From Branchiostoma lanceolatum (lineage: Eukaryota > Chordata > Leptocardii > Amphioxiformes > Branchiostomatidae), in assembly GCF_035083965.1 (NCBI RefSeq), contig NC_089726.1, positions 10,669,501 through 10,733,500 on the forward strand: a stretch of DNA of 64,000 bases, in the 5' to 3' direction. How positions within the stretch are numbered: the first letter of the stretch is position 1; each line of letters opens with the position of its first letter. The position numbers were made by a program, and so were the translations under genes. Below are positions 2,529 through 63,819 of the stretch, in pieces. Under the pieces are notes generated by a model that was not told the origin of the DNA, did not search any database, and saw only the letters and a list, made by a program, of their open reading frames with translations.

Positions 2529-5191
2529 TTTATTTGAAACTCTGCCATACTGTGGACTACAGGGCAACATCGAAATCATTTTTTTACGTTACAAAAATGC
2601 TTCTGTCAAGCATACAGATTCGTCTTTATCTTACATAATATAACGCACATGGGATAACCATATTGCTGATGAAAATACTTGTAGTGGTACTTAAATTATG
2701 GCCTACACTACTTGCCAACCAACATACTCAATATCTTCTCCCTATTCTAGAGCAGCTCTCCAGTCCAAAATCTATATCATTCTCAATGAATTGAAGACTG
2801 GGGCAAGCCAACTACCTCTGAAACTGATTTTAAGTATGTAGTTACACCTTAAAGTAGTGCAGACAAAAACATGGGACATTTGTATCTCACAGATACTCCA
2901 TGTATAAAACTTACAACTCTCCTGGCAAAACAGTGAAAGCTGGGGATGTGTCTTGAGACAAGCCTTGCACAGAATAACTGGAGAACAATGGCAACTTCAA
3001 ATATCATAACACAACAAACACCTATTGCAGTGTCTTCTCACATTATTCCTTCTCCCAGATACTGACATTACCGGCGGTATTTAGAGGGTGCGGATAGACA
3101 TAGTTCAATGTAAGCACTGTTACAGTAGTGATCCGAAGCTCCAAGACAATTTTTGATACAAAGCCAAACACCGGAGAAACGTTTTGTTTCATAAGGTTAC
3201 AATGGCACCATTACTCATTAAAATAATTCCAATTCACAGAGAGCAATACATAGCACATTAGGCTGCAGCTTTTAGTGTGTTTTTAAAACATACGAGAAAC
3301 TTTGCAATTCACCAGAGCATAACCACACAGTAGAGCTCTGGTTTAGAACTTGTGTTTCAATGTGTATGTGAGAACACATTATACTACAATTTCCTTCCAG
3401 ATACTAGCTTTCAGTTGAGCCATTCTTCACCATTGTGTCATATGATATGCTTTATGATTTCCATGGCACACATCACAGAATGTCTACTATGTACTTCCAA
3501 GCAAAGCGATGTGCAACAAATTGGGAACAGTTCATATCATAGTTGTCAATCAAAGGAAGTAGACCAGAATAGAATTGAGGGGTTAAATACATGTACATGT
3601 AACATAAGAATGAGCTATTGGGAAGACAACTCCTTGTCAAGGCCAAAAATTTCCATTTGAATTCCCGACAATGATGCAGAGAGGAGGCACTATGAGATAG
3701 AAACTAAAACAGACACAAAGCATAGGAAGAGCACTGTAATTTACAACAACCAAGACCTACATGTAGGATTGTTGCTATGTTCCTTGTGTAAGCTTAAGCT
3801 TTTGTTGCTGTGTATTTATCATTTGAGGAACACCTTTCCTTGCTTCTACTTTTATGATGATCAGCCAATCCTGGACTCAAGAAGAATAATATTCTTTTTC
3901 GTTTCTTGTAAATGATGCATTAAGCTCATTTTAACAACCCAAAAGTTCCACTAACTGAAATCTTTGGTATACTACTGTACTTAGTAGGAGTTTGACAAAA
4001 GAACTTACATGTCTGTGACCACCTGGAAGTTGATGCAAGCTACAAAATAGATGTCATTTTCAGCTTTGTAAATGCTTTTTTATCTTGAAATCCAGCAAAC
4101 ATGCCGCTTACTGTGCTTTACAGAAAGGCAATGGCCCTGAGGTGTTGCCCAAATGCAGCAATTCCTGTTACGTTCATATTTTCGTACTGTATCAAACCGG
4201 GCAACAAAGTTTCTTATCATCTGCCGACATACACAGGCTGCTCTTTCCCTCTATGGATATAGAAAATTATTCATACACATGTATAGTGTACATTGTGTAT
4301 GGAGACAAACTACGGTGGGTACATACGAACAGTTTTGCTGTGTCAGAATTGTGCTTGTACAGGACAGATCCACCATTTTCAAACTGGCAGCAGGTATTGT
4401 GAACTTTTTCTTTCTTTAGCTTTTCCCACACCTAACTATTTCTTCTTGTTGAGTGCAAAGATTTTCTGTTGGTGGTTTCTGAAGACAAATCCCAGAGTTC
4501 TTGAGAAGAAGATGATTTCATTTCAGACTTGAGAATGTATGATATCAAATTTGAACTTATTAGAACATGAAGTCAACTTGTAGAGAAGACCATGCTCCAC
4601 TGAACTGGCCGACTCGTGTAGAATTTTGAAATAGAGATTTCTCGTTAACAGTTCATTTTCTCTTCTGGGTCAAACATGACTATACTACTCTTAGGCCTGC
4701 ATTGCAACAAAGAGACAAGGAAGCCAGGTAATTAACAACAAAACCTTCCACCGAGGGCATTATGCATTACTCTACGTACCATTTAGTTTCTCATCGTCTT
4801 AAACGTAGGGCATGATTTTCACATCTGTGTACTGTGGACACTTAGTCTATTTCATTCCTATCCTTTCTAGCTGGAAGGCAGCAGTAGGAGCTAACATGTA
4901 CAGTTAGCAGCAGTGTGGGCCGAGTTATCAACATGTCAGAGTGAATCCTAAAGGTCGATGGCATACGCAGACATCCCAGGCCAGAAAAATTAGGCTCTGC
5001 CAAATGTGCCACCATCTATGACCTGGGATAGAATTGAACTTGGAACCCTAGATTTAATCTGACCAGGGGTCAGAGAGGTTCGAGTGTAGGACAGGGGAGG
5101 TGTGGCACACCCCTGTGCTGGAGGTGATGTTGTAGAAGAGGTGGATATGGTGATGAGGATGGTAGGAGGTTTAACAGAGGAAGGCCAGCTC
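2529..5191 (-). other. ARIH2: probable ARIH2 3' UTR
   Basis: No coding exon is visible downstream of the ARIH2 stop at 5192-5194 until the ODF3-like gene. The first convincing minus-strand AATAAA is at 2534-2529, which would give a 3' UTR of about 2.6 kb. The stretch is AT-rich and lacks long reading frames. Transcript ends are not proven by sequence alone. Confidence 0.4.
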
Positions 5192-8100
5192 TCAGCTCTC
5201 GGAGAAGTCCCTCAGCAGAGTCAGTCGGCGCTTCTCTGTGATATCCATCTGGTTTTCTAAGTCCTACAGGAATACAGAAAACTTCAAAATTACATGGAAA
5301 TAATTGCGATTTCTTGCAAAACTTTACCTAACAGTGGGTGCTATTGTACACCAGTTCTTCAACTCACACACAGCTATATATACCTGCATCTCTTTTAAAA
5401 AGTACATGTGGTCAGATTTTTGCCAAAGGGAAACTTCAAATTTACTTAGTACTCATGAAAAACTGCTCACCCCTCTGTCCGTCTGCTCGGCACGTTCGAT
5501 CTTCCAGGACAGGTTCTCAATCTCGGCCTCCAACTGAGCCTGCTGGTACTCGAACTGGGAAGGGAATGTTGGACAACAAAAGCAACAACTTAGCTTCTCA
5601 AACAGGAAAAAAAATGTGCCTGCTTTTGTATACTTTTAGAATCGTTTAAGCATTATCAGGTATGATTTCCAGCAACACAGTACAGAGTTCAAGATATTAC
5701 CGTATGTGTTATGTGTACTCCAATATGTACAAATACATGTTCAAACAGTAGGGACTGGAAACATATTTCAGGAAGACATTAGGAGATATGATCCTACCAG
5801 CTTCTTGCGAGGGCCTCCATCCTGGTAGTATGCATAAGGGTAGGTGTACTCTAGGGTGTAACGGCACTGTGCAGAAAAGATAACAAAATTAGTATATTTC
5901 TATAACTGTAGGACTGATGTTCTATGGGTTAAAGATAAAAAATTCATTTTTATTGCCTATTTATTCATTGCTGTTTTAGCCAGGGAGGCCCATCTCAATG
6001 GCATGGCACTGCCTTTACGTGGGGATTTATCTTATTACAGTCAAACCTGCCCAAGGCGACCACCCGGGGGACCGAGCAAAATCGGTCGCGATGGACAGGT
6101 GGTCGCCATGAAGAGGATTCCAATCATAACATGTTTCCAGCTCGAGGTGTTCAAATACCGTGTACCACGTAGATGGATGGAAAATTATGTGATTTTAGAC
6201 AGCAGGTTCAATTCTCATTGACAGAAAGATCCTACAAAAATTACATTTTCTGTAATCGTTGTAATATTTGTATACCGTTACATCGTGAACAAATGTTCGT
6301 CGTAATTTTGACTAAAAACAATGTCTGCCTCGATGACCTTGCAGCGCCCTCCCGCATTCACACGTTACGTTAAAGTAAGAGTACACACACACACGCGCGT
6401 ATAAAATCTAGGTTTTAAGGCCTGAGACAAATCCCTAGAAAATCCCAGCCTTCTTTTGGGAGCCGACCGCTGGATTAAAGCGGCAAAAAGTTTTCGATCT
6501 GACAACTGAAGGATGAGAACGGAAAGTTGTGATACCGCCGCCGAGCACGCAACCGCATCGAAAGGTAACAGTGGAGCAGAACGCACAGCGTCGGCGATTA
6601 CAAGCAAGCAGCGCCCAATAAAGGTTTGTGAGAGTCATGAAAATAACAAGAATATAAGAATATTAATTTTCATCAATAAAGAGAGTATTCTAGATATTCA
6701 TACACAGAAGCGTCGTGTTTTAGAAAAGTCAGCGTTATGCTGCGCTGAAACAAGATGGCGTCGCGGACCAAGAAACAACATGTCTCGGCCAACGTTTTGC
6801 CCTCCACTGCGGAGTCATTTTCCGGCGGAATTTAGTAAGGCAGAGACACATTTTTGTTGAAAATACAAGAAATTGATAGTAATTTCAGTGAAATCTGACT
6901 TTTTGACGCCATGCACTACGTGATCGTTTTGAAAATTGAGTTCAAACCGAACCGAGCTTGCGGTAAACTATAAGATAACGATGGGCACAACAACATCGAT
7001 ATCTAAGTACATTCACAATCCTTTGTATTTACAATGTTTATAGTGGGAACGTTTCATTAAAATACTTTGTGGAGGAATCAATGCTTTTGATATATTCTTG
7101 TCCGTCAAGGTCTTAAGAAAATTTCCGCGAAATCCGACAGCAAAATTCGATGTCACCACACGCCGGAAAAATGTGGTCGCCATGAGCAGGGATTGTGCTC
7201 TGTGCGGTCCTAATTCATGGCGGTCGCGTTGGACGGGTGGTCGCCTTGGGCAGGCAGCTTAATGCTTGTGCCTATGGGGAAAAATTTCGGGACCGAGAAA
7301 AAGCGGTCGCCATGACCAGGTGGTCGCGTTGAAAAGGTGGTCGCCTAGGCAGGTTTGACTGTACTCTTATGGTAGTGTCCTAATGTGGGAAAGTCACCAT
7401 TCACTGAAGAGAAGACCTTACTTTTTAAGTTTCATTTTCACAGATGCGATTTTCACCTTACAACATCAAAGAGTTGTTGCCCTTTCAAGTTTTCTTTTCA
7501 AATGGACATTTTTTTTTAAGAAGATAGAACAAAGGAAAACCTGAGTACATCACCATTATGTCCCTGTATTTGTGTCTATGATCCCGATGAAAAATAAATG
7601 AATAGAAAAAGCCCAAAGGCTGCCGACCTTGTGTAGGAGATTGGCTGCGTCCAGCAGGTACTGCCAGTCGATCCAGGTGCCCATGTTGTTCATGACCTTC
7701 TCCTTGATGCGGTGCTGGATCCGCTGGAACGTCTGCTCCTCCAGCTTCAGGCTCTTCTGGTGGTTCTCCCACTAGGGCGCAACAGGACAAGCAACTTGAT
7801 TGGTTCGTTTGAAAATTGAATTGCTAGCTCAATTTCATTGGTCTGAGCAATGTGATTGGCTCATTTGCACTGTAAGTTCAATTCTATTGGTTTCTTTCTA
7901 AAATATGGCCAATAACATTGGTTTGGCTCTTCTGGTGGTTCTCAAACTACAGCACAACAGAAGAAGCATCTTGATTGGTTCATTTAATTTGCCAGCTCAA
8001 TTTCAATGGTCCCTCTCCAAGCAATGTTGCACTAAAAGTTTAATTTACTGGTCCCTCTCTGAATGAGATGTATTGGTTCATCTGCACTAAAAGCTCAATA

Positions 8101-11100
8101 ACATTGGTCCCTTTCTGAAATAGGGCTAACAACATTGGTTTTGCTCAACAGTTATCTACTTTCATTCGTCAATTTCAGGGAGACGGCCAACTCCAATCGT
8201 CCAACTGCATTCAACTTTCATTGCAAAGTTCTCGAGGACAACCATCTTCAATAGAACAATGACAAGTCACTTCAAATGTAAAACAACCATTGCAAAACAA
8301 AACATTCTAGAAAGTACTTTATAAGCTGAGACTGGACAGAATACTGGAGGATATCAGAAGCAAATCTATTTATTCTGATAAAACCATAGGTACGTCATGG
8401 ACAATGCATACCCGTTCAAAGTAGAAGAGGTACTTCTTGAGAGCTTCCCTTGCCTGTGCCTGAGCGCTCTCATTGGCAATATTAGGGTTCTCCTTGTACC
8501 GGCTACACTCATAGTACTCACTACCGTGGGTCTTCCAATCTGTGGGGCAAACACCCAAATGAAATTGTTGTGGTGTGAAAGTCATTGGTAAACACAATCA
8601 TATTCAGTGGCTTATTGTTTAGGGATTTTGCATTTTTGCAAGTTTGTTTTTATAAAAAAAGCAATTGCACTAAGATACTCCCTCTAGGCATTAAACACAA
8701 CAGAATGAGCGTAGTCTGCATTAAAAAAATCGACTAAAAGAAAAGCTAAGGAACATCTATGTCACAAACAAGGTTCGTGTTTGAAGTATGAAATTAATCT
8801 AGGATAAACCATACAACAGTAACCTACCCTAGATGTATGTGCACCAAATATGAAGTACATGATGTACAGCAATACTAGCCATTACCACTAATCATTACAG
8901 TGAAAAGTTTTACATCTTCCACACCAAAACCCTCCAAGCATTTCTGAAATATTTTAAAAGAAGGATGAAACTATCACAGGAAGAATTGCAGGACAAAGAA
9001 TGAGAGTCGTACCTCCAAGACACATCCAGCAGAAATCTGTAAACACAAACGGTACAACATTAGGTACAACATGTATCAGATTCTACACATTCTGATTCAA
9101 TGCAATCATTTCATGGCATGATCACACACTTTGTAAAGTAAAAAGGCCATCACACAAAATCATTTCTCTGGTAATGACTACAATGTTTCCTGTATCCCAA
9201 ATGTTTTCCGAACAAAGATAAAGTAGTAGAAAGTAGGACAGAGAACTTTTTTCACAAGGTGAGACATATGCACTAATGTATTGCACAAGGCTTTATTCTT
9301 CTACCTTGTTATGTTCCTTGATACTGTAAAATATGGGTTATTTCATTAATATACAGGTGTCAATCCATTTGATGCATTTTTGTAACACAGGAATTTTACC
9401 TACCGTACCGGCATTGATAACATTGCTGGAAGACAAAGAATCATTACTCACCATGCTTGCATTTGAAACATTGCTGCAGAAGAAAGTGAAAAACATGCAA
9501 TAAATGTTTCACACACAGCCAACATGCTGTCAAGTACATGCACACAATATTGAGTTATCAGCAACATGCACAAGAATGTCACCTGAAATATACACATGTT
9601 CATGTTTGTCTGAAACAGTCACATACATCTGTGTTGTTCAGATGAATATTACCAAGTTGATAAGCTTATAATACAATGTATATCAATAGATACTGGCATT
9701 CTAAAAATTGTGACAGAAATAAAACTGTATATACATGTACATACTTGGAATCTATTTGAAGTGTGACACTGAGCCGTAAACATCTTCTTCTTTTGACTAC
9801 TGCAAGCATGTACATTCAATGACAATTTTCCATTTTCTATTTTTCTTACATTTCATGATGCAAGTGCTCAACGACAAGGTTAACGTACCATATGGTTGCA
9901 GCCTCCATTTTTCTCTATACAAATGTTACACTTCGGGCACTGTAGAAAGACATACCAAGCAAAGGAGGTCAGTTTGACATTTATAATTCAGTGTAATGAT
10001 AAACTGGCAACTAAAGCAAGCAACCAATAAAGTTTTCAATGGCGCCTTATACCAATTAACAGGTTTATTGTTCTGTATATGGATACAATTTTGTGTGCTC
10101 CATACAGGTTTAATTTTTTTATCATAAGCAATAATCTTATTTCACTAATTAATGATCCTACCACCAAGTGGCTTTGTTCTGTCTATAAACTGCCGTTTCC
10201 ATCAACATTAGCAGCAGCAGTCACGTCTGCAAATACCAGAGTTACATTTTGTATCAATCCAGAATTGAGGTGTTTGTTTTTCTCTAGAACTGTAGTAGAG
10301 AGGAACTCATTGACACCTACATGTAAGTACTGTATCCTCAATAGATTTAACTCACATCTTTAGTATGTGCACTGATGTAGTTGGCTGTCTCGGAGTCATC
10401 TGCACACTTCCGCAGCCAGCTCTCTATTGTGGGGCAGTCTGCTGGTACATGGTAGTCTTTCAAACACCTAAAACTGGGAGGTGTGGAAACAAGGAGGGAT
10501 GAAACAAATTCACTTCCAAAGTTTTAGTTACAACTGTATGTTGGCTTGTAATAATGTGGTAAACAACTCAACTAAAAGTATGCATGTTATGAACAGTTTT
10601 ATTTGTCAGCATCACAGCAACCTAAGGAGATTATTTGGTGTGTTTAGTAGGCTTAAAATATCAATATCTAGACCTTACATTAAATGTACTTCAGACTCAA
10701 AAATCCATTTAAGAAGATATTTCTTAGAAACTCTTTAAGCATTACCTTTATCAGTGGTACTCATCAATTGACACCATTGTAATTTCCTACGATTATCTAT
10801 GTTATTGATATTGTTGACTTACATTACAATGCATTTATGTGATGATATTGCTGTTTTAGTGTATAGTGTATGATGCTTATTGCTGTTATTGTTTTAAATG
10901 TTAGAGAATAGACCCAGGATTACTTGAAAAAACGCTCAAAATGACCATACCTCTCCTGGTTAAACAAATAAAGTGAACTGAACTGAAGTACACCTACCAG
11001 CAGCATGTCTTGCACTTCTTACACTGTACTTTTCTGCCCAGCGGCTGTGGTGCCATGAACAGGACATCACAGTCTGGGCCTGGGCACCATCGCAGCTGGT

Positions 11101-13924
11101 AGTGGCCCTATCATGGGGAGGAAACATCAGGAAAAACTGACTAAAAACAGTATCAAGATGTGCAGATTAAGGAAACTTCAGGTTACAGTCCTGAAAAAAT
11201 TAGGGTCAGAATACGGCGATTTCTTTTTTTCTTCTTCTTTTTTTCTTTTCAACAAATACAGTTTACCCGACTGACCCTAGCAAAGACCTGCCTACTGTTG
11301 GAAAACGATTCTACTAAGTTTTTCATCACTCAGATGTCTTATTGTCCCATGTCAGTAGGCTTTTGCAAGGGTCAATCGGGCAACCGGAAGCACATTTTTC
11401 CTAGGCCTTACACAGTTACAACTTCATATTCTATTTTGTCTTTTTCTGTACCAAATCATTGTTCAAGCTATTCCAGGATATTGTAGGACATATTATTTGC
11501 TATACAACTTTTTAAAGATGAAGTCTAATAGACAAACATTACCTTTAGTCATATCTTGGTAAGTTGTCTATAGATAGTGACGAATAAGTGAGAATATGGC
11601 TATGACAGACACTTTAGTCCATATGGTGAACTCACCTTGATATAGTCATTGAAGGCAAACTGTTGATATCTCCTAAGGATAACTGGGTCATTTTTTACTA
11701 TAGAGAGGGCAAATTCTTCTGTTGTGATGAGCCTACAGTCACTCCACATGCACTCCACTCCTGGGGACATATAAGGAAGTGCTGCTGTTAATGTTGTATA
11801 AGAAATCTAGTGTATCAGAGGAGTGTCCAAATAACTAGGAAGCCATTATGTACATATCTATAATTATTACGTATGTTCGTCTCATCAACGCTTCAAAGTC
11901 ACAGTATTTCCCTTCCATATACTTCCCATTGAACTTCATGCTTCCAAAAGCGGTAAAATTTTCCTTATTCAAAAGACTTCTATACCTTCATTTTGTTTTC
12001 TCTAGCACATCATTATAGTGTTCAATGCAACTGCAAACAATTTTGAGGCAACCACTGAACTGAAGTACAAACAAAGACTTTTTTTAAACACAGTGATGGC
12101 TGTAGAGTACACCTACCTGTGGCCACGCCATCCTCTACCTGCACCTGGAAGTACCTCTGCCAGCAGTCTGTACAGAACTTGTGGTTGCAGGCGAGACTCA
12201 GGAGGTCCTTCTCCTCCTGGGCCTGCAGACACACAGGGCACTGCTTAGGGGGCGGCTCCACCTGCTGATAAACACAAGTATTGCAAGTGATCAAGTTGCT
12301 GCATCCAGGAAGGTTAGTATGGAGTAAAACTTGCCACATTCCACCAGCTACCCATCTACATTAACAATTCCCATTGAACCAGATTAACCATATACATGTA
12401 CAGTATTTATTGCCTTTAAACAACTAAGAAGCTTAATAACAACAGAACAACAATAACATTGAAATAAGAAGAAATTTAAAAAGAAGAGAAAAAGAACTCC
12501 TTTGTGTACTTACTTTTGCTCTACTTGGAGGAGGTAGTATTCTGCAATCTACCATTAACTGTACAGAGTCTTCCCTAAACCTGGACACAAATAAGGGTAA
12601 GTCAAAAACTAAAGTACAATGTATGAATGAAAACACAAGACAAGTCTTTGTTTGAAACCATTACTATCTTGAAATTTCAGGAAAAACACATCACAGTGTG
12701 AAGACAGCCCAATCTTAACTTATGCAATCACCTTTTACAGAGGATCTTCATTTGTCAGAATGCATAAAACGTGCTTAAAATGAAGGAAATCAAAGTTCCT
12801 AGGTCAGAGCTGTGAATACTGACCTTTCCATAACATCACTTAACACCCACTGGTGTGCTTGCAGCAGTACTTTACCTATGGTGTGGGACACCTGTGGGGA
12901 GAACTATACAGCGGTTACAAAGTGGAATGCAGTGACAGTTACATGAGTTCGATGCATGACATACCACACAATCGGCACACATATTCCTGCTTATCTTTAT
13001 ACAAGTATAAGGAACATACATGTATTCACAATGTTGGGGAGTGGGTGTATAGTGCATGGTTAGCTTTCTGATTCATAGTTCCCAGTGAATAGCCAATTTT
13101 AAAGAACTAAATGCTACTTCATTACTTTTTCTAAAAGGAGGTCACGCAGAAGTTCAGAAAAATCTACTGCCTTTTCATTTCTTTACAGACAGACTACCTG
13201 TACCCTTGAATTCCCTAATCGTTTTTGAACCCTCCAGGTGCCTTCTTTCCACAATGTGCATGTAGTTCTTTACTACTCAGGCTTTACCACCTAACACATG
13301 AAAGGAAGCGAATGTTGATTACCTGTATTGTCTGAGTTAATTCTGTTACTTTCTCATCAAGAAACTGACAGGCCTCCTCTTTATTAAATAGAAAGTATTC
13401 GAAGGCCTCTGGGTCAAAAATCTGCCCCCTGTCATCCTGAAAGTAGAAGGGTACAAACACCAAATAGTGTTATTATCAAAAATGATCTACAGTATAAATA
13501 AATTACTAAGCATGATTATACTTAACACTTACTTCACAGCTCTTAAGTTGTACTTATGCGTATACAACTTACTACACGAAAGCTTAACATATGTTTGTCA
13601 TTTTCTTTAATATGTTAACAGCATGGAAACTTCACTGATCTGTTGCCATGTTTAACTGTCTTCTTGCTGTGGGAGGACAGGTAGACGTTCAATTGTGTTT
13701 TTATTATAACAGACATTTGCAGAGACAGGTTGAAGCACTGTTAGTAATTCCCTAATTTGTTACAAGACAGTCTGACTGACTCTGACCTGTTCCATGTCAT
13801 CAGGGCCGTAGTTGTAGTAATCATTAATGTCCTCATCACTGTAGTCCTGGTAGCTGCTGTCGCTTAAGCCCTCGTCGTCTGGGTCTGACCCTTGGCTCGC
13901 CATGTCTGCATCCGCCTCAGACAT
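5192..13924 (-). CDS. ARIH2: Ariadne-2 RBR E3 ubiquitin ligase (ARIH2), complete
   Basis: Sixteen coding exons (high to low): 13924-13787, 13436-13323, 12891-12824, 12580-12514, 12261-12117, 11760-11636, 11107-10998, 10473-10356, 9939-9889, one of 9473-9452 or 9425-9404, 9036-9013, 8539-8412, 7771-7628, 5866-5798, 5554-5471, 5263-5192. They give 492 aa; human ARIH2 is 493 aa. Order: acidic N terminus ([14 protein letters not shown]), RING1 from about residue 137 ([19 protein letters not shown]), IBR ([26 protein letters not shown]), RING2 (residues 296-325) with catalytic Cys309 in GGCNHM, then the Ariadne domain ([39 protein letters not shown]). The family accepts ubiquitin from E2 on the RING2 cysteine and works with neddylated cullin-5 complexes in cytoplasm and nucleus. 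The orthology call is strong: the Ariadne-domain residues match ARIH2, not ARIH1. Confidence 0.96.
6036..7363. mobile_element. non-autonomous DNA element with TACAGTCAAACC inverted ends
   Basis: The left end (TACAGTCAAACCTGCCCAAG) and the right end (reverse complement TACAGTCAAACCTGCCTAGG) form terminal inverted repeats inside the ARIH2 intron between exons 13 and 14. Subterminal GGTGGTCGCC motifs repeat several times in both halves. A possible 7-bp target duplication is ATCTTAT on the left and CTCTTAT on the right (one mismatch). No transposase frame is recognised. Superfamily not assigned. Confidence 0.7.
7751..8170. repeat. diverged tandem repeats rich in ATTGG, spanning the ARIH2 exon 13 acceptor
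   Basis: The block GCTCTTCTGGTGGTTCTC at the start of exon 13 (7751) recurs at 7926, followed in both cases by similar intron sequence with CTTGATTGGTTC. Later units keep ATTGGTCCCTYTCTGAA-like cores. The copy at 7926 carries a TAG acceptor-like site and the first codons of exon 13 but soon leaves the frame. Confidence 0.6.
9404..9473 (-). other. ARIH2: mutually exclusive ARIH2 microexon pair 10a/10b
   Basis: Exon 10a (9473-9452) encodes QCFKCKH plus one base; exon 10b (9425-9404) encodes QCYQCRY plus one base. Both are exactly 22 nt, start in the same phase after TCTGCAG or TTCCAG acceptors, and end in GTGAG or GTAGGT donors. Either joins exon 9 (ending CNHM) to exon 11 (starting with the two bases that complete Asp, then FCWMCLG). 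The intron between them is 26 nt, too short for ordinary splicing, and including both or neither shifts the frame. Version 10a is closer to vertebrate ARIH2. Both keep the two zinc-ligand cysteines. Confidence 0.88.
10481..10983 (+). repeat. possible degenerate retroelement 3' end in ARIH2 intron
   Basis: An 85-codon open frame without family match runs to 10738 and is followed by AT-rich sequence ending in TCTCCTGGTTAAACAAATAA, which resembles 3' ends of CR1-like LINEs. No reverse-transcriptase motif is present. The assignment is weak. Confidence 0.3.
11258..11400. mobile_element. short MITE-like inverted-repeat element
   Basis: CCCGACTGACCCTAGCAAAG near 11267 is mirrored by CTTTTGCAAGGGTCAATCGG near 11359, giving an element of about 140 bp in an ARIH2 intron. 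A related GGGTTTTGCAAGGGTCGG segment occurs at 49160-49180 in an RTK intron, so the family is dispersed. Confidence 0.5.
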
Positions 13925-18500: not shown

Positions 18501-21500
18501 TATTTGATTTCATAAAAAATGAAAACCTGTATTTTGGATTTATGTTGATGACAAATACCTCATTTACTTTGTCATTTACAATTGATGTAGTTGCATGTAC
18601 TGCATGTGTTTGTGTTAATCATGACTGTGTTTTGTCTTTTCTATAGAGCTGCTCCGAAGCGCCTGACAGCTGTACCAGAGCTGCAGAAGCCGGTGGAATA
18701 CCTACTGAGTAGTGATGACCTGCTGGCCAAGCTGGCACACACCATTGGGAGAGTCCACTTTGGCCAAGATGGTACAAACTCAGATTTCTCTGAAAGTTGA
18801 ACAATGGTTGCAAAGTATGGAGACCTGTCTTTTATGCCTGTTATCTGGTATGTGCAACTTGCATGAAAGTTGCATTGTTTTAGTTCTTTGAGGATTTTGC
18901 TCCCTGTTTCTACTTTGATTCTTGACGTACAGTGTAATCAAGCAGCAGTCCATTGGAAGTCTTTGTGTTGAAAAGACTTTTGCAACATTTGTTTTCTTCT
19001 AGATCAAGGTTTGCGACAGTTGCCTTAGGGTATAGAGAGCAAATGAAGGCCAGAATTGATAGAATGTACTCTGCATACTATGTTTTAAGATATGACTTCC
19101 ACTGCAGGAACACTTTTTTCTAGAAATGCTTGCAAATTGTTTTGTGTTCACTCTATTTGTATGTATGTCTCAATGGGTCAATGTACCTGAAATTAAGAAA
19201 TGAATTCATTTCAGGTGAAGAACAGGGACAGGAAACAACAAAGACCGACAGTGTTTCTGTCCCCACCACCCCCTCAGCACCCCTGGACCATGGGGACGCA
19301 GAGGTGGGACCCTTACCCCTCCCTGCCGGCGAGATCTCCAACATCCTGGACGAGTTCAGTGACCTTTTTGACATGCTTGGAAACATTGGTATGCTACCTT
19401 GTACGCACAGTATGCATAGTACTCAAAAGTTTTATCCTGTACCAAAGAGAAATGATATTTAATCGTTGTTTGTTTTATTTGATGGAGTTTTCCTCCATTT
19501 CCAGTAGTTCTAGTAGTTGAGTAGTAGTCGTGTTAACAAAGTTGCTGCCAACATTTTCAGAGACTCCAGTCAGCGGTTCAAGAGGCACACAAGAACGTAG
19601 GACGGACAGGTCGAACACTGCCACTCCCATCAGCCTCACTGATGCCTTAGACTGGTCAGACATTGGCATGCCAGAAGAACAGCTTCCGTCATCGTCTGCT
19701 GAAACAAACGCAAACATTCGCAGCACTACAGAACAAGGGAACAGTAGCACTCTGCAAAATGTATGTACCACAACGTCATCAGTTATACTCGTGAGCAGTA
19801 CTGCACCTACGACCAGTACTGGTGCAAGTGTGCTTGGCAGTGTTGTGTTGCAGCCCCCCACAGCGCCTGTGTCCTGTACCCCAGCAGTAGTGAACAGTAC
19901 AACTACAGGTGTACAGAACATCCAGCCACAGCCTGCACAGCTTACAACTACAGGTGATTGACCTTATTTCTGATTTCAAAGCAGTTAACATTCAATTCAG
20001 TTGCTAAAGGGCAACTTGGGAATAAATGGAATTACATGTAAAATTCTATGGTATTAAATCAAGTACAGTGAGAAAGATGGCATCCTTTTATATAAAAAAT
20101 AATGTTGGTGACGGTCCCCCTCTTGTGCCTAGTGGCAAATAGGGTAGCATGTTTCCTAGTGTTGCTAGCCCCAAAACCTTTAGTCACCACAGTTTTGTCT
20201 AGAAGTGTATTTCATGTGTTTTGTCTATTCTTTCTTCCCTTCTGCAGTCCCAGTCTTGTTGCAGACCCAGCCCTTGGCAACAGTGGCCCCACCTCAGGTC
20301 ATCGCTGTTCCAAGAGGAATGGCAGTCATACAGCAGAACTCGACATCTATCCCCTCTTCTGTTGTATCCTCCAACAGTAGCATGGCTTGTATTTCATTGG
20401 TTGGTGGAACGGTAGGCCTGCCAGTGCTGCAGTTAGCCTCTAATCAGCAAGGGGTCGCCGCAACAAGAAGCAACATGGTTTTTACCACAAACACACAAAC
20501 TGTGCCTGCCACTCAGCCCAACAGGCAAAGTCGACTAAATGTGGTTCCGAAACCAGTCCCAGGAAAGAAGCCACTTCCAAAGACAACCATTTCCTCTAAA
20601 CTGCCGGCACCCTCCCCTGCAAAATACGCCACAAAACAGCTGACAGTAAGAGAACAGGATGCCAAGCCTCTTCAGGGCATAGTTTTGCCCAGTCCCGGAA
20701 AGCAAACAAGCCCAGGAAAGTCGTCCAACCAGGCAAGCCTGAGTGGCCGGGTGAAAACCGCCCATGTCCGTATCCTTGACTTTGGTGGGAGTGACGAGGC
20801 AGAGTCAGGCTCTCCTTCCTCGTCCTCACAACAGGCTCCGGGGAACCAGGGCAGGGTTCACTGGCTGAAACAGGCCTCCCAGCCCAAACGTCCCAAACAA
20901 GCAAAATCAACAGCAGTTACAGGGAGGAGGAAGCTGAGAAATCCAGCCCAGGCAGTCCCCCAGGCACCCCAGCAGACAGCCCCTCCAGCTATTGCAGCTG
21001 TAGATGTAGTGGAGAGGCAGCTTGTGTTTGTAGAACAGCAAACTTCAGGTAGTTCAAGTCAAGTTGCCGTCCATAGTGCTGTGAACCAACCTCTAGTCAG
21101 TAAGGCAATAATCTCCCAATCTGGGCAAGGTCAGGTCCCGGTCAGTAGTGTTGAGGTTGTGAGCAAGAACGTGCCTGTCTTAAGTGAAAAACAGAGTGTG
21201 AGAAGAGCCGAATGTGTGGTGGAAAACTTGGACATTGCTGCGTCTGTTGAGATCAGTCAGAGTCGTGGAGCTAACGGCAGAAGCAGGGTACAGGAAACTG
21301 ATGAGGCCTTCATTCCAGCAGGGTGCAGCCCGCCTAAGGACAACAGAACAACAGGAGTTCAACTGCCAAGGTCAACAGGCATTAGATCAGCACAAGCAAG
21401 AGAAAACACAAAGGACAGAAGTAGAAAACAGAAGGAGAATGTACAGAAAGAGAGCAAGGTATTGAGCAGGCAAAAACACAGGAAAGACATGTGCTTGAAA

Positions 21501-23278
21501 GCTGAGATGTTTGAAGGTGTGAACCCGGACAGCCCATCAACTAGTAGAACTTTAGCAGCAGAAACTCTAGTGAGCCTTGCTACTGCAATCACACTACACT
21601 CAGGCACTGCAGATGATGCATCGGACGACCATGATAATGGAAAACCCACAGCAAGTGGATTACAGAGAGTAGGGAACGCTACCTCTGCAGACACCTTACA
21701 TACAGGCACTGCAGGGGATACTACAGACAGCCAGAAAACTGGTACAGCTACATGTCTATCAGCAAATATCTCACATACAGGCACAGAGGGCAGTGCAGCA
21801 GATAAGAGTAAAAGTGTACTTCCTACATCTGTAGAAAAAGAGACAAGAACTGAGGGGCTAGAACCCAAAGAGCAGCATCAGAAAAGAGATGTCATTGTGA
21901 ACAATGCAAAGTCTCCGGTAGCCCAGGAGAATACACCAGCATCAGGGAACAGCTCAGTTAGTCAGGAGGAAAATAACACTGCTGGCCTCCAAAGATCACA
22001 GCACCATGGTGTCCCTGGGACAGCTGGCGTAGACAGAACTACCAGAAATACCACAGCTAACAGCACTGAAAAGATCAGTTCCACAGATGAAGCGCGTAGT
22101 GCTGTCACTGGAAATAAAAATGTTGAAATAAGGGCAAGTAGTGTTGATGGTAAGACATGTACAAGCGTATGTGAGAGAGGGACAGAGATGGTCACAAACA
22201 GTGAAAACTCAGAAAAGACACAGAAAAAGAGAAGTACAGGGAAGCATGTTACCTTTTTGGAAGAAGGAAATGCAGACAGAGGCTCTGATGATACTTTGCA
22301 GTCTCCATTAGATAGACCAGAGGCTCAGAATAGTGAGATGCAGAGCATGATTGCCAGTCAAAAAGCCCAGGGTCCTGTCAATGACTCTTCAAAGACACTG
22401 TCACAACAATCAGGAAAAGGAAAGGAGGAAAGAGCAGAGGGAAACCCACAAGAGATTTCTGTTCCAAAGCCACAAGAAGTTACTCCTGGCCGAATGACAC
22501 TGCAATCCAGAGAAAATTCAGACAATGGTACAACGGAAAGAATAGGTGTTTTTGATGAAAGAGTAGAAGAAGGGAATGAGAGAGCAGAAGGAAAGAGGGA
22601 TGTGAGCAAATCGAACCCTGTGATTGTTGAGATAAGAGGAGAGAAGAGAGGAAGAAGTGACACTGATGCTAAGGTGGGTACCAGACTACCAGTACTGATA
22701 AAGCAAGAATGCAAGTAGTGTTTGCAAGTCAAGGAAACCTTTCCAAGCAGTCTTGCATATTTTAAAAGAAAATTGCTGTAGTAAAAACATCATATTTCTG
22801 TTGACTGTTGTCACTTATCAATTCTTTTTTTATTATTTTCTCCTTAATAGCCTGGCAAGAGACCAAAGACAAACAAACAGGTACAGTTGCTACAGCATTG
22901 TGCTCTCTTTTCTTCAATTGTTCTTAAAGTTGAATTGAAATTGTTGAAAACATTTTCTCTAACAATTGCTAACAATGTTGTTGATAGTCTGGTTAGGTAT
23001 AGGTTGTGAGTGCTTAAAGTGTTATTGTAAGTGTAGGTAATGCTAATGTATTAATAGGCTTGGTAATGTAATGTGTTTGTAATTATTATGACTCCAGGAA
23101 GACTAGTGTAGTATATGTATATACTCACTAATTGAGATCTGTCAAATAAACAAACCATTGCGGCATCACTCTCTCATTTCCATTTCAGAGATCAAGAGGT
23201 GGCAAGCACGGGAGGCTGAAATTTCCTGCCAACTTGGATGTGGACAGTTTTCTGTCCAAAATCCACAACGGGAGCTGA
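15553..23278 (+). CDS. NPAT: NPAT, histone-gene transcription coactivator with LisH domain, complete
   Basis: Thirteen coding exons: 15553-15589, 16196-16308, 16578-16638, 16993-17065, 17242-17330, 17591-17800, 18249-18459, 18647-18771, 19215-19388, 19561-19953, 20248-22673, 22851-22880, 23189-23278; total 1343 aa (human NPAT about 1427). Residues 1-35 (SSDVARLVLGYLSDEGLVRS) are the LisH domain and match the NPAT N terminus closely. The middle is Ser/Thr/Gln-rich and disordered. An acidic segment ILDEFSDLFDML (exon 9) and a basic stretch (KRGRS, PGKRPKTNKQ, RSRGG) precede the C-terminal motif FPANLDVDSFLSKIH. Known NPAT is a cyclin E-CDK2 substrate at histone locus bodies that drives replication-dependent histone transcription. 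Exon 11 alone encodes 808 residues. Divergent to ARIH2. Confidence 0.93.
18257..18328 (+). repeat. NPAT: four 18-nt repeats in NPAT exon 7
   Basis: The unit CCTGTTGCAACTCCAACA occurs four times without interruption and encodes PVATPT four times, followed by degenerate PVTATAPITT-type units. It keeps frame and may vary in copy number. Confidence 0.9.
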
Positions 23279-25379: not shown

Positions 25380-53063
<27,684 letters not shown>

Positions 53064-58800: not shown

Positions 58801-61800
58801 AATGGTTAACTGAAATCAATCTAGCAGAACAATAAACCATCCTTTTTTTCTATTATTCTGTCAGTATCATGTACTATCTTTGCACTAATCATATATATGG
58901 TAGATTTTGTCTCTAGTCGTGCTGACACCATAATATTTCAACTTGAAACTACCGTCCGCCGCACGCACAATGACGGTGCTGTCGGACAGGGGTGAACATT
59001 AATTCGGGAGAGAAGATTCGTCTTGAATATCTTACAGCTGATTACATTTTATACAGCAGCTATTCGTTCCATCCTTGGCTTGAGGAGAGTGCTATGGATA
59101 CAGACGTGTCCAAGTAAAAAAAATACACGAAAAAACGGTCGTACCGCACACATCAGGCCTCAGGGAACAACCCGTGTGTTGAGTCGGTAGAACGCTACTC
59201 AAAGTTCACCCCCACCGTCATGGAAATTTGTACATTATTCATCGGGGCGTTAGCTGGATGCCGTAGAAATGGTAATACTACTATGTCCATGTGTTTCTGC
59301 TTGTGCTAAGAGCAAACTTTGAGGAAAATATCGCCATCAGTCCACTATCACACACAACATTTGGACAAAAAAGTGTTCCTCACAAACGTTTGTCGTCTGC
59401 CGAATAGCAGGATTCTGGGTAACGAATATGGCGGCGGGAAAATTCACCGTAGTGCCGTAGCCATTGGTTGTAGCAACAAAGAGGCGTTTTGATGATTAAT
59501 CACACTTAGAGTCCAGTTGTAGGTTAGCAAAAGAGATTCTAATAAGTTGTATTGTAAATAATTGTGTTGAGAAGTTTTGTGACATTTGTCTTATAAACCA
59601 GCGAACAACTATGTAGTATAGTTCTCCCACGAAGCCCTCAGACTGTGACAATAAGGGACGGAGAGTTTTTGACGTAGCCAACTTCTAATGCATGGTTATC
59701 GAAGCTTTTCAGACAGTGTTCTGAATACGTTAGTCTGTCAAGTTAGCATTTCTAGCGGTATTACTGATGTTGCATCTAGCACATATCCCTAAATACCCCG
59801 TTTTCGAAAAATCCCGAATTTAAGTACCCCACGAATTTATGTTACCCAACGTTACATGCAAGTCATCAACCTGACAGATTCATTCAGTCAGCAGGTAGCA
59901 AGTGAGGGACGCTCATCGGGAGGGACGTTCTTCTGGAATCATTACAATAGGAAATATGACACAGATATTGCAAATTGCAATGAAAAAATGATCTTAGTCC
60001 ATTATACTTTTCTGCCACCCTTTCTACTTCCTCGCTCCCTCCTTCCTTCCTTCCTTCCTTCCTTCCTTCCTTCCTTCCTTCCTTCCTTCCTTCCTTCCTT
60101 CCTTCCTTCCTTCCTTCCTTCCTTCCTTCCTTCCTTCCTTCCTTCCTTCCTTCCTTCCTTCCTTCCTTCCTTCCTTCCTTCCTTCCTTCCTTCCTTCCTT
60201 CCTTCCTTCCTTCCTTCCTTCCTTCCTTCCTTCCTTCCTTCCTTCCTTCCTTCCTCCCTCCCTCCCTTCCTCCCTCCCTCCCTATCTCCCTCCCTCCCTC
60301 CCTCCCTCCTTCCATGTATCTATGATTTACCGGACGTTCATGTTGCATTACTGTTATAACATTGTTGCATACATACCACACAAACATCATAATGAGTGTG
60401 AATTTCCGCAGTCTCGGCGTTCGGAATAAGTCTAGAATATTCTTCCTCTCTGTCGAGGCGCCTGACGAGCCACTCATGTGTAAATCCTTCTCGTCTGTGC
60501 TACCTGGGATAATAGGTGTGACATCAGGACCTTGGGGTCCTGGAGGATCAAATTCGGTTTTTCCCGTACCACCCCCGCTAACAAGCATGGGGCTGGGCAC
60601 GGCTTTGTTGTTGAACCTGGCCACCTTCTGAAGGATCTCTTCCGCTTCGCTGATTCTGCCTCTCGAAACAAGCCACCTGGATGATTCCGGAATAACCCTG
60701 TCAAACAAATCAATAAAAAAACTCTCAGCTGATGTTGGAGACCTGGTGCATACGTTTGACATAGTGGTATGGTAAAAATATATCGGGTTTTGCAGTCAAA
60801 CATTGTTTATTTACTTGTTTGTTTGTTTGTTTGATTGTTTATTTATCCAGGGGGTACATATCGCCTGTAATGGCGTTTTTCAATGTGCCCGGGGGGGGGG
60901 GGGCAATCCCCACATTGTTCAAACTTAAATACATAAGATAACAAAAATAACAACTGTAATCAAATAATAGTACAAGGTAAACTTAACTAAATGCTTCGAA
61001 ATACTAACTTATTACAACTGATTTCAAATAACAAAATGAATAAAACAATAACATAACATAACATAACATAACATAACATAACATAACATAGAAAAACAAG
61101 GGAATAACGTCAGAAAAGAAAGGACTAGAACGGAATTTGCATATCAATGTTTGGCAGAGAGGCAGTGGACATCATATAGTTGTTTAAAATGTGGAAGTGA
61201 TCTGGCTGATTTGAGATGTTGTGGAAGTGTGTTCCAAAGTGCAGCCCCAGAGGACGAGAAGGCTCGTCTTCTGTATTCCAAATGTGTCATTGGCAACTGA
61301 GGGCCGCCTTGTGCCCTTAGGCGGGTGTTATGTTATCAGTTAACCATAATGGTGCAATCCGTATGCAAGTAATGGAAACTAGAACTGTTTCGGCATGATT
61401 CAATGTACACATGATTAGTCCAAATTGCATCGGTTATATGCTAACCTACACATATCATCTGAAAGTATCTGCCTTATTGGCAATATTAGGGCAATTGTAT
61501 TCTTAGGAGTCGAGCCACATAAAGACAAGTTACAGGATAACTAAGGTTAAGACCTGAGGTCTGTATAGCTATGACAGAACGTTATAATCACGGTGGTCAA
61601 ATTCAGGCTTAGGAACTCCGGATATTGTTAAACAGCATAAGTATGACAAAAGCTGTGCCGTGTACTTAGAGGGCAGTTCATAGCATATCTAGATCTGGAA
61701 TAAGGCGTGATAGTTGAATGCGAAGTGATCATTCTGTTTGGAGGATTGTCACCTAACCGTTCGCCAACACGTTAGCACAAGTCGTCATTATCAGTGTGGG

Positions 61801-63670
61801 GTCCGTGACAGATCCTCCAGGCCCAGTTGCACAGTACAGTGGAAGGTTGCCTTGGGGTAGCTGGCAAACGGTTACCGCAGTGATCGTTCAAAATGGTGAC
61901 CTGATGTCTCGCATTCAATTGGTTCAATTACATGACTTTACTACACCTTAGCACCTGTGACTGCAAGTATGAAGATGTGCATCATTGCACACGTGCCTGA
62001 TAGTATAATTGGAAGTAGGTCAAAATGAATCGTCCTTGAAGCATCCTCGTTTTCTACGTTTTAATCTGTGAACGGTAAGAAAACTAAGAGATCACCAGAC
62101 TACTAAAACAGTAGAAAAGAGATAAGAACCTCGAGCTCTGTGACGTTTTCAAATACTGGGCTAGAACAAACCAAATTGAACATCGCAAACCGTCGCAAAT
62201 TGGCGAAATTTCAAAAAAATTCGCAATTGACAAATTGGCGCAACTGGACGCAAAGCAGTGAACATCCTTTTATCACTGCAAAACTCGTTTTAATGAATTT
62301 TCAACTTACTTATTGCACATTGGTTTTTGATTCAGTGGCAACGCTGCAATTTCCAATACAGTTATCTTAACTGAGAATGTGACATTGGCTCATTGCTGGG
62401 CTTCATACGCATGAGTCGAATTTCGGTTTGACCGTAACTTGAAAAAACTGGCACAAATTGGCGCAGTCCGGTGAGATACCCGCTTAACAACAAAAAAAGC
62501 AACTAGTCAAAAACAACGAACATACCACCAGTACGGTAGGGCGATGACGTTGAAGAGAGAGATAAGAAGTTGTAGATGTCGCCAGTTCGGGAGGAGGTAG
62601 GCCAGCAGGGCGAGGCTCATGATGCCCGAGGCCCAGAACAGAGTGGTCAGCACTCCGGCAAAGCTGCGCCGGGCGGGGGAGAACATCTCGGTGGCCATCA
62701 CGTAGGACACGATATCAACCCCCTGCGCAGGGAGAAGGTCATAAAGAACGAGCGTAGTCTCGCACAGACTCATTGGGTTTCTAGAAAAATATCACGATTA
62801 GCCATATAAGGCTGAATAATTCTTCAAAGGAGATAACCGACCAAGGAGTTAGGTGTTTGCAACCCCTGTGTTTGCCAGCAACTCGAAGAGTCTGGTATTG
62901 ACTAAGGACCGGGTTCCGAAATTGGGGAAGATGGAGGGACTAGCAAGCAAATTCTATCATTGATACTCCCGAAACATATGCGAGGGACTCTTTTAGATGA
63001 ACATCGATATGCAGCACCCCCCATCATTCCTGATAATTTACAACGGCCTTAAGGATGCTCGAAAGAGTTCAATATCTCATTTCAAGCTGGATGTTTCAAA
63101 GTCGTCAGTACGCATCTTAGAATTCTTGTCTCAACACCAAATTTTAGAGCTGCTTTTTCTGACCGACGTTATGTTGTCTGTTGCTCTCACCTTGAGAACT
63201 TTGTGTTCCTTTCCCAGCTGATCAGACTTACAGCCAGCACGACGTTTCCCGTTCCATCTCTCGGAGTACCGGCACAGACCTTACATGTATGTATTATTTC
63301 GTTTCGTAGGCCAGCTGTCAAATGTGTTCATATTCGTCACATTGGACGCTGACGCTGATAAACTATTGGCATGACCTACAGTATGACCGGTGTCTCAAGA
63401 TTGCACGTATATGTATATCACCAACTTCAAAGCCTGTACCTGTTCTAGAGCTCCGGTGATGAACCTCAGGATAGTGAAGGAGTAGTAGTCCTGCGCAAAC
63501 GCTGCGCCCACTCCGAAAACGATCTGCAGCCAGATGGACACGAGCCAGATCCGAAGGCGTCCGAAGTGGTCCGACAGCTGCCCGAACACCAACGAGCCGA
63601 CCATGACTCCCGCCATGAAGACGGACTCAGACGTCTCCACCAGTGCTGACTTATTGCACACCAGGTCCCA
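55801..63670 (-). CDS. SLC22-family organic-ion transporter, 3' eight exons
   Basis: Exons 63670-63440, 62722-62526, 60697-60377, 58722-58588, 57945-57863, 56861-56741, 56348-56276 and 55938-55801 join in frame to 432 codons plus stop; the first opens with WDLVCNKSALVE after a CACAG acceptor. Signatures: WDLVC and the MFS motif GQLSDHFGRLR after helix 2, PESSRWL after helix 6, DLFRTPRLRK before helix 7, YYGLSLNT in helix 7, RWGRR between helices 8 and 9, ATELFPTVVRN after helix 10, and the C-terminal LPETKGRK. These are diagnostic of SLC22 (OCT/OCTN/OAT) plasma-membrane carriers of organic cations, carnitine or anions. The N terminus with helix 1 and the large outer loop lies past the right edge. 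The loop after PESSRWL is Gly/Pro-rich and longer than in human OCTs. Substrate cannot be predicted. Confidence 0.93.
57497..57605 (-). repeat. dispersed repeat family, copy C
   Basis: Shares GCACGCGGTGCGACAGCAGC, CTTTGCACATCTAGCTGCAA and TTTAAAGCTATCCAGCGAAG with the right half of copy A. Lies in an SLC22 intron. Confidence 0.65.
57736..57760. repeat. (TA)n microsatellite
   Basis: Short TA run inside an SLC22 intron. Confidence 0.85.
58762..59857. mobile_element. 1.1-kb TIR element in SLC22 intron
   Basis: The left end has TAACGTTGGGTAACATAAAT then TTCGGGATTTTTC; the right end is the inverted counterpart (CGAAAAATCCCGAATT, then ATTTATGTTACCCAACGTTA) with a roughly 20-base insertion. No transposase frame is visible. 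The target duplication is unclear (ATG/CATG flanks at most). It lies about 40 bases from the acceptor of SLC22 exon 58722-58588. Confidence 0.72.
60034..60308. repeat. (CCTT)n/(CCCT)n microsatellite
   Basis: More than 50 CCTT units, nearly uninterrupted, then CCCT-type units. It is AAGG-rich on the SLC22 transcribed sense strand, and lies in the intron after exon 60697-60377. Confidence 0.97.
60890..60903. repeat. G homopolymer
   Basis: A run of about 12 G residues, close to a GTTT repeat at 60812-60840. Confidence 0.9.
61045..61090. repeat. (ATAAC)n microsatellite
   Basis: About nine ATAAC units in an SLC22 intron. Confidence 0.92.
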
Positions 63671-63819
63671 CTGTGATGTACAAACAAGCCGCATCCGTAA
63701 TTGTGACGACCAAAGTACATTGACTGGATTAGCTTTAGCTTATCACTTTCGTCTACCATGCATGTTTAAACTATGTACTGTATATATTTCACTGTATATG
63801 TCACTTCCATGTTAGTTAG

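Follow-up and report, generated by a model that had tools for sequence, protein, structure and literature searches.

Predicted mutually exclusive 22-nt microexons within the catalytic RING2 domain of ARIH2 in Branchiostoma lanceolatum

In Branchiostoma lanceolatum, the part of the ARIH2 gene that encodes the catalytic RING2 (Rcat) domain appears to contain two mutually exclusive microexons (A and B) produced by tandem duplication, a reading to which we assign a probability of about three in four on the basis of sequence analysis. The window, i.e., the whole stretch of DNA that was analyzed, comprises 64,000 nt of assembly GCF_035083965.1 (contig NC_089726.1, positions 10,669,501-10,733,500 of the forward strand), and all positions given below refer to this window. 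The gene lies on the minus strand and its assembled model consists of the following elements, taken from the spliced model unless another basis is given:

5190..13924, minus strand: complete ARIH2 coding region in 16 exons (5190 is the model's cut)
13924-13787, 13436-13323, 12891-12824, 12580-12514 and 12261-12117, minus strand: exons 1-5
11760-11636, 11107-10998 and 10467-10356, minus strand: exons 6-8
9939-9889, minus strand: exon 9 (51 nt), with the catalytic cysteine inside and ending in ...GGCNHM (alignment to human ARIH2 and ARIH1)
9474..9888, minus strand: intron 5' of exon 10A (415 nt), with three yTnAy branch-point candidates of consensus form, 13, 27 and 56 nt from its 3' end
9473-9452, minus strand: microexon 10A (A; 22 nt), encoding QCFKCKH plus the first base of an Asp codon
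9451-9426, minus strand: spacer between A and B (26 nt, GT...AG), which includes the 10A donor as well as the pyrimidine tract and acceptor of 10B
9425-9404, minus strand: microexon 10B (B; 22 nt), encoding QCYQCRY plus the first base of the same split Asp codon
9037..9403, minus strand: intron 3' of exon 10B (367 nt)
9036-9013, minus strand: exon 11, a 24-nt microexon encoding the remainder of the Asp codon, FCWMCLG and the first base of the next codon
8539-8412, minus strand: exon 12 (128 nt), encoding the end of RING2 and what follows
7771-7628, 5866-5798 and 5554-5471, minus strand: exons 13-15
from 5263, minus strand: last exon, with the stop codon TGA at 5194-5192

The best PDB match of the 490-aa model is human ARIH2 (7od1_A; residues 6-489 aligned to 3-492, E 2.7e-200), and the second best is ARIH1 (E about 1e-86). 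As the alignment is full-length and ARIH2 outranks the other RBR ligases, the gene is a predicted ARIH2 orthologue with the same RING2 context, as had been proposed in a previous sequence-only reading of this DNA. The splice borders of the model are GT at all 15 donors and AG at all 15 acceptors, and the introns other than the A-B spacer range from 207 to 1761 nt. The coding sequence of RING2 is split into exons of 51, 22 and 24 nt, followed by the exon of 128 nt. Exon 5 has a tandem acceptor CAGCAG (12262-12267, minus strand), with a possible one-residue variant just before RING1.

Elsewhere in the window, the minus strand carries (i) an open frame matching reverse transcriptase (26482-27417; RVT_1, E 1.2e-13), which is a piece of a retroelement, (ii) two exon-like open frames with kinase-domain matches (34358-34693, PK_Tyr_Ser-Thr, E 5.5e-09; and 36343-36690, E 7.9e-05, just below the cut-off), and (iii) two exon-like open frames with transporter matches (63398-63739, MFS_1, E 6.8e-09; and 60300-60795, Sugar_tr, E 0.00068, below the cut-off). 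Near the transporter-like frames lies a long simple repeat (within 59793-60426), reading SFLPSFLP on the plus strand. An 844-aa open frame on the plus strand (20184-22718, stop to stop), without a Pfam match at E 0.001, is probably one large exon of a neighboring gene.

Microexon A has the sequence CAATGTTTCAAATGCAAGCATG (9473-9452, minus strand) and microexon B the sequence CAATGTTATCAATGCCGGTACG (9425-9404, minus strand), each with AG before and GT after it. Their coordinates, lengths, phase and peptides agree with the earlier description of two equal-phase 22-nt exons placed directly after GGCNHM. The two copies are identical at 15 of 22 nt (7 differ), and the BLOSUM score of their peptides is 31, compared with a self score of 47 (0.66). 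When same-length AG..GT stretches were collected from the introns flanking the 14 internal exons (38 candidates; two exons had none), B was the sole positive scorer (0.66 relative to the self score), and no other candidate exceeded -0.08. Dinucleotide shuffles of the two neighboring intron stretches, with approximately three AG-N22-GT stretches per shuffle, contained a candidate equal to B in 0 of 4000 cases. The whole window holds 473 AG-N22-GT stretches on both strands, and the stop-free pattern.C..C.. is found in three of them, namely A, B and one unrelated stretch. A pattern common to A and B (and derived from these two copies) has two matches in the window, whereas two or more matches were found in 0 of 100 whole-window shuffles.

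The duplication proposed earlier is thus well borne out by the candidate and shuffling tests. The same results, including those of the whole-window shuffles, argue against a chance likeness of intron sequence to exon A, which we consider extremely improbable and in whose favor no point was found. At the 48-nt offset, ungapped identity is higher in the exon (15/22) than upstream (11/26) or downstream (13/26) of it; the Tandem Repeats Finder output for 9000-9950 (two other rows) does not include the 48-nt duplication, which indicates that the flanks of the copies have drifted. No further copy of the microexon and no other exon duplication in ARIH2 came to light: none of the other 37 candidates scored positively and the shared-pattern search returned the two copies only. 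A and B are neighbors of similar length and the same phase that are, to judge from their sequences, homologous, the features by which mutually exclusive exons are recognized.

Five spliced products were modeled: with A only, with B only, with A and B, with neither, and with the retained 70-nt block composed of A, spacer and B (9404-9473, minus strand). A alone and B alone each give a protein of 490 aa. Since 22 nt leaves one base over after seven codons, the inclusion of both microexons or of neither shifts the frame, as the sequence-only reading had claimed: A joined to B (44 nt) leads to a stop after 338 aa, and skipping of both to a stop after 368 aa. The frame logic of the pair is therefore sound; what the earlier account lacked is the 70-nt product, which is phase-neutral, contains an in-frame TAA TGA and stops after 319 aa. 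Among the five modeled products, the full-length enzyme is obtained from A alone or B alone only. The productive exclusivity predicted from these models follows from the frame, because A-B joining, even if it happened, would result in a truncated protein. In XBP1 mRNA, a 26-base intron is cut out by IRE1 without the spliceosome (PMC5435141). A comparable excision of the 26-nt spacer was rejected as a route to the enzyme; it would join A to B and lead to truncation.

In the proposed mechanism, exon 9 would continue in frame into either 10A or 10B, and the chosen microexon into exon 11. The spacer would be too short for an ordinary intron, as its 26 nt have to accommodate both the donor of 10A and the U2/U2AF site of 10B; recognition of the 3' splice site of 10B would then mask the donor of 10A, and vice versa. 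A minimum donor-to-branch-point distance of about 50 nt has been proposed (PMC7969005), and in a survey of human mutually exclusive exons, 57 clusters (9%) showed potential steric interference, with donor and branch point less than 50 nt apart (PMC5740500). In ARIH2, the spacer measures no more than 26 nt in total, and its two TnAy branch-point-like adenines, the only ones in these 26 nt, are located 8 and 11 nt from the donor of A. Even with a branch point for B located 5' of A, only 26 nt would be available for the step from A to B.

Steric exclusivity of A and B is very likely on these distances, because a spliceosomal intron of 26 nt would be exceptional. Among 22 human short introns (37-65 nt) that were screened, splicing was supported for 15 (PMC4463651), introns of approximately 25 bp are spliced in some ciliates (PMC5014332), and human RNA-seq predicts very short introns, far below 50 nt (PMC5435141). 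The earlier claim that the gap blocks A-B joining thus agrees with the limit of approximately 50 nt, but its absolute form is weakened by such predicted introns and by the excision of 26 bases from XBP1 mRNA, and joining of A to B is better described as very unlikely rather than impossible. With 22 nt each, A and B are within the length definitions of microexons (27-30 nt or less; PMC7954323, PMC11463390). Exon definition is physically hindered for microexons (PMC11463390), so both should need intron definition, and the choice between them would probably be made by intron definition upstream and downstream. The predicted products are ARIH2-A with QCFKCKH and ARIH2-B with QCYQCRY, the splicing of B being inferred. 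RNA secondary structure was rejected as a mechanism of exclusivity, as far as region-scale pairing is concerned: the fold of the stretch 9360-9560 is not more stable than that of shuffled sequences (z 0.95; at least equal folding in 169 of 200). The window contains no structured RNA families at the gathering threshold.

The donors of A and B score 8.8 and 6.8, within the range of the 14 other scored donors of the gene (4.1-10.9). For the acceptors, a model with 20 upstream columns gave 5.7 for A and -0.6 for B, which places B below all 14 others (0.2 to 13.1) and at rank 129 of 547 AGs. With a 15-column model of the acceptor core, devised after the 20-column result was known, the scores were 6.8 for A and 8.3 for B (others 4.5-10.6), so that B stands above 8 of the 14 others, and A and B rank 29 and 16 of 548 AGs. 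The pyrimidine tract of B is short, going with the 26-nt spacer. Three consensus yTnAy candidates precede A (listed above). There is none within 60 nt upstream of B, where the only two TnAy, TAAT and TGAT, stand 18 and 15 nt before B; the branch point of B might alternatively lie upstream of A. The donor and core acceptor of B look usable on these scores. The label of good splice sites given to the pair earlier suits both donors and both acceptor cores, but not the acceptor of B over 20 columns. The AG of A, unlike that of B, is directly preceded by TGC, which would fit a UGC-dependent regulator of A and is a weak lead.

The differences between A and B are confined to four codons (F/Y, K/Q, K/R and H/Y). 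All of these changes are nonsynonymous and none is silent, and a clean signature of purifying selection is accordingly absent from the pair. In a drift simulation with seven random substitutions (200,000 runs each from A and from B), both cysteines were kept and no stop arose in 8.8% of the runs from A and 7.1% of those from B, while the similarity of A and B was reached in 1.3 and 1.4%, respectively. Placed in the RING2 context, B fits no worse than A in each of the three RING2/IBR profiles of Pfam that passed the cut-off: IBR_1 (58.3 bits with B vs. 55.9 with A), IBR_2 (41.1 vs. 39.6) and IBR (29.9 vs. 29.4). Below the cut-off were zf-RING_2 (10.2 bits with B vs. 14.9 with A) and zf-C3HC4 (10.4 bits with A; B had no match). 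As a control, 60 simulated drift variants, all already keeping both cysteines, were scored: the IBR_1 score of B was matched by 2 of them (3/61 counting B), that of A by 9 (10/61 counting B), and the IBR_2 score of B by 14 (15/61 counting B). The evidence from the drift and profile tests for the retention of B as coding sequence is moderate, not overwhelming.

These results bear on the possibility that B is a relic, i.e., a duplicated microexon seldom if ever spliced, with A being constitutive. The peptide of A is nearly that of human ARIH2 (6 of 7 residues, vs. 3 of 7 for B), B has non-consensus branch-point candidates along with its short tract, and the exclusively nonsynonymous codon changes described above also speak for a relic. 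Yet after seven substitutions B keeps the frame, AG, GT and both cysteines and has acquired no stop, and it outscores A in three IBR/RING2 profiles, which makes a relic rather unlikely. Another explanation is that the pair serves mainly for productive/unproductive control, the 70-nt block (from the acceptor of A to the donor of B) being a poison exon that sets the dosage of ARIH2 via mRNA decay, and not the protein version. The block has the properties needed, being phase-neutral and cut by its TAA TGA before the remaining RING2 and everything after it, and an exon of 70 nt should be easier to define than one of 22 nt, given the constraint on microexons (PMC11463390). A poison exon would have no need for the coding quality of B, a good donor of A or a good core acceptor of B, all of which are present, and we regard this explanation as improbable. 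The 70-nt block could nevertheless be recognized as one poison exon beside the two productive choices of a mutually exclusive pair, which is the reading that we prefer.

By alignment, the A/B segment corresponds to residues 314-320 of human ARIH2 (chain 7od1_A; QCSKCKH), the catalytic cysteine being residue 310 in the same numbering, and the residues that differ between A and B are found at +6, +7, +9 and +10 relative to this cysteine. The RING2 cysteines are kept in both isoforms; the two conserved cysteines of the segment presumably bind the first RING2 zinc, as in RBR structures. It had been proposed that both variants retain two cysteines and differ in the neighboring residues close to the active cysteine, and the alignment confirms it. 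In ARIH1, RING2 residues grip the tail of ubiquitin and the Ariadne domain masks RING2 until activation (PMC7904520), while contacts with the E2 and Gfi1 have been assigned to the Rcat of TRIAD1 (PMC3940038). The changes between A and B could touch contacts with the ubiquitin tail, the E2, Gfi1 or the Ariadne domain. The exchange of A for B, we infer, most likely tunes how RING2 contacts the autoinhibiting Ariadne domain, the ubiquitin tail or the E2, and is less likely to act as an on/off switch.

A more far-reaching and tentative proposal is that ARIH2 in this lineage may be a regulated two-state enzyme, in which the choice of microexon by competing, overlapping splice sites in the 26-nt spacer swaps the RING2 surface 6-10 residues past the catalytic cysteine. 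If this were true, the two ligases would differ in E2 use, ubiquitin discharge or locking of the Ariadne domain on CUL5 complexes, and the gene would represent an extreme form of sterically enforced splicing, invisible to surveys with a minimum exon length. The mutually exclusive pair itself, if real, would mean that exon duplication can work at the scale of 7 residues inside the active domain of an enzyme, exclusivity being inherent in the spacing and the frame, and it would be a natural swap experiment on the RING2 of a cullin-activated E3 ligase.

The literature search found no alternative RING2 segment in the accessible text of published ARIH2/RBR work, and a phrase search for mutually exclusive microexons returned no report. 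Judged by titles, the amphioxus literature on mutually exclusive exons contains nothing on ARIH2, and the Ariadne/Branchiostoma/RBR literature nothing on paired RING2 exons among the matches listed. In its accessible excerpt, PMC12578292 has the length of the ARIH2 3'-UTR as its ARIH2 subject. A search for relatives gave 26 pattern matches in GTDB contigs and one in IMG/VR, none of which is a relative. The survey of human mutually exclusive exons excluded those shorter than 10 aa (PMC5740500), so that a pair of 7 aa each would have escaped detection. Microexons have been termed cassette exons (PMC7821500), and mutually exclusive microexons fall between two fields, namely surveys of mutually exclusive exons, at least one of which, genome-wide, was length-limited (PMC5740500), and cassette-centered microexon work.

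The predicted pair may be compared with several known systems. Microexons of the SRRM4/PRPF40A type are typically cassettes, on which microexon work centers. Like these neuronal, SRRM4/PRPF40A-dependent microexons, those of ARIH2 are not longer than 30 nt, with hindered exon definition (PMC11463390). Neural inclusion of SRRM4/eMIC-type microexons depends on an eMIC factor and a UGC motif; of the ARIH2 pair, A has TGC before its AG and B does not. The neuronal ones are typically included or skipped, whereas in ARIH2 skipping truncates the protein and one homologous microexon would replace the other. The gene aligns with human ARIH2 over the full length and has its RING2 context in common with ARIH2/TRIAD1 and other RBR E3 ligases. 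With frame-shifting mutually exclusive exons it shares the consequence that, at 22 nt, both or neither shifts the frame. In alpha-tropomyosin, mutually exclusive exons are sterically enforced by a branch point close to the upstream donor. The same principle applies to exons 4a and 4b of OGDH, two homologous exons whose splicing from the first to the second is hindered by a branch point too near the donor of the first (PMC7969005). The branch points of OGDH are 25-41 nt from the donor, whereas the ARIH2 candidates, which are predicted and not mapped, are at 8 and 11 nt; intron 4a of OGDH measures 118-131 nt in birds and mammals (PMC7969005), compared with a whole spacer of 26 nt and exons of 22 nt in ARIH2.
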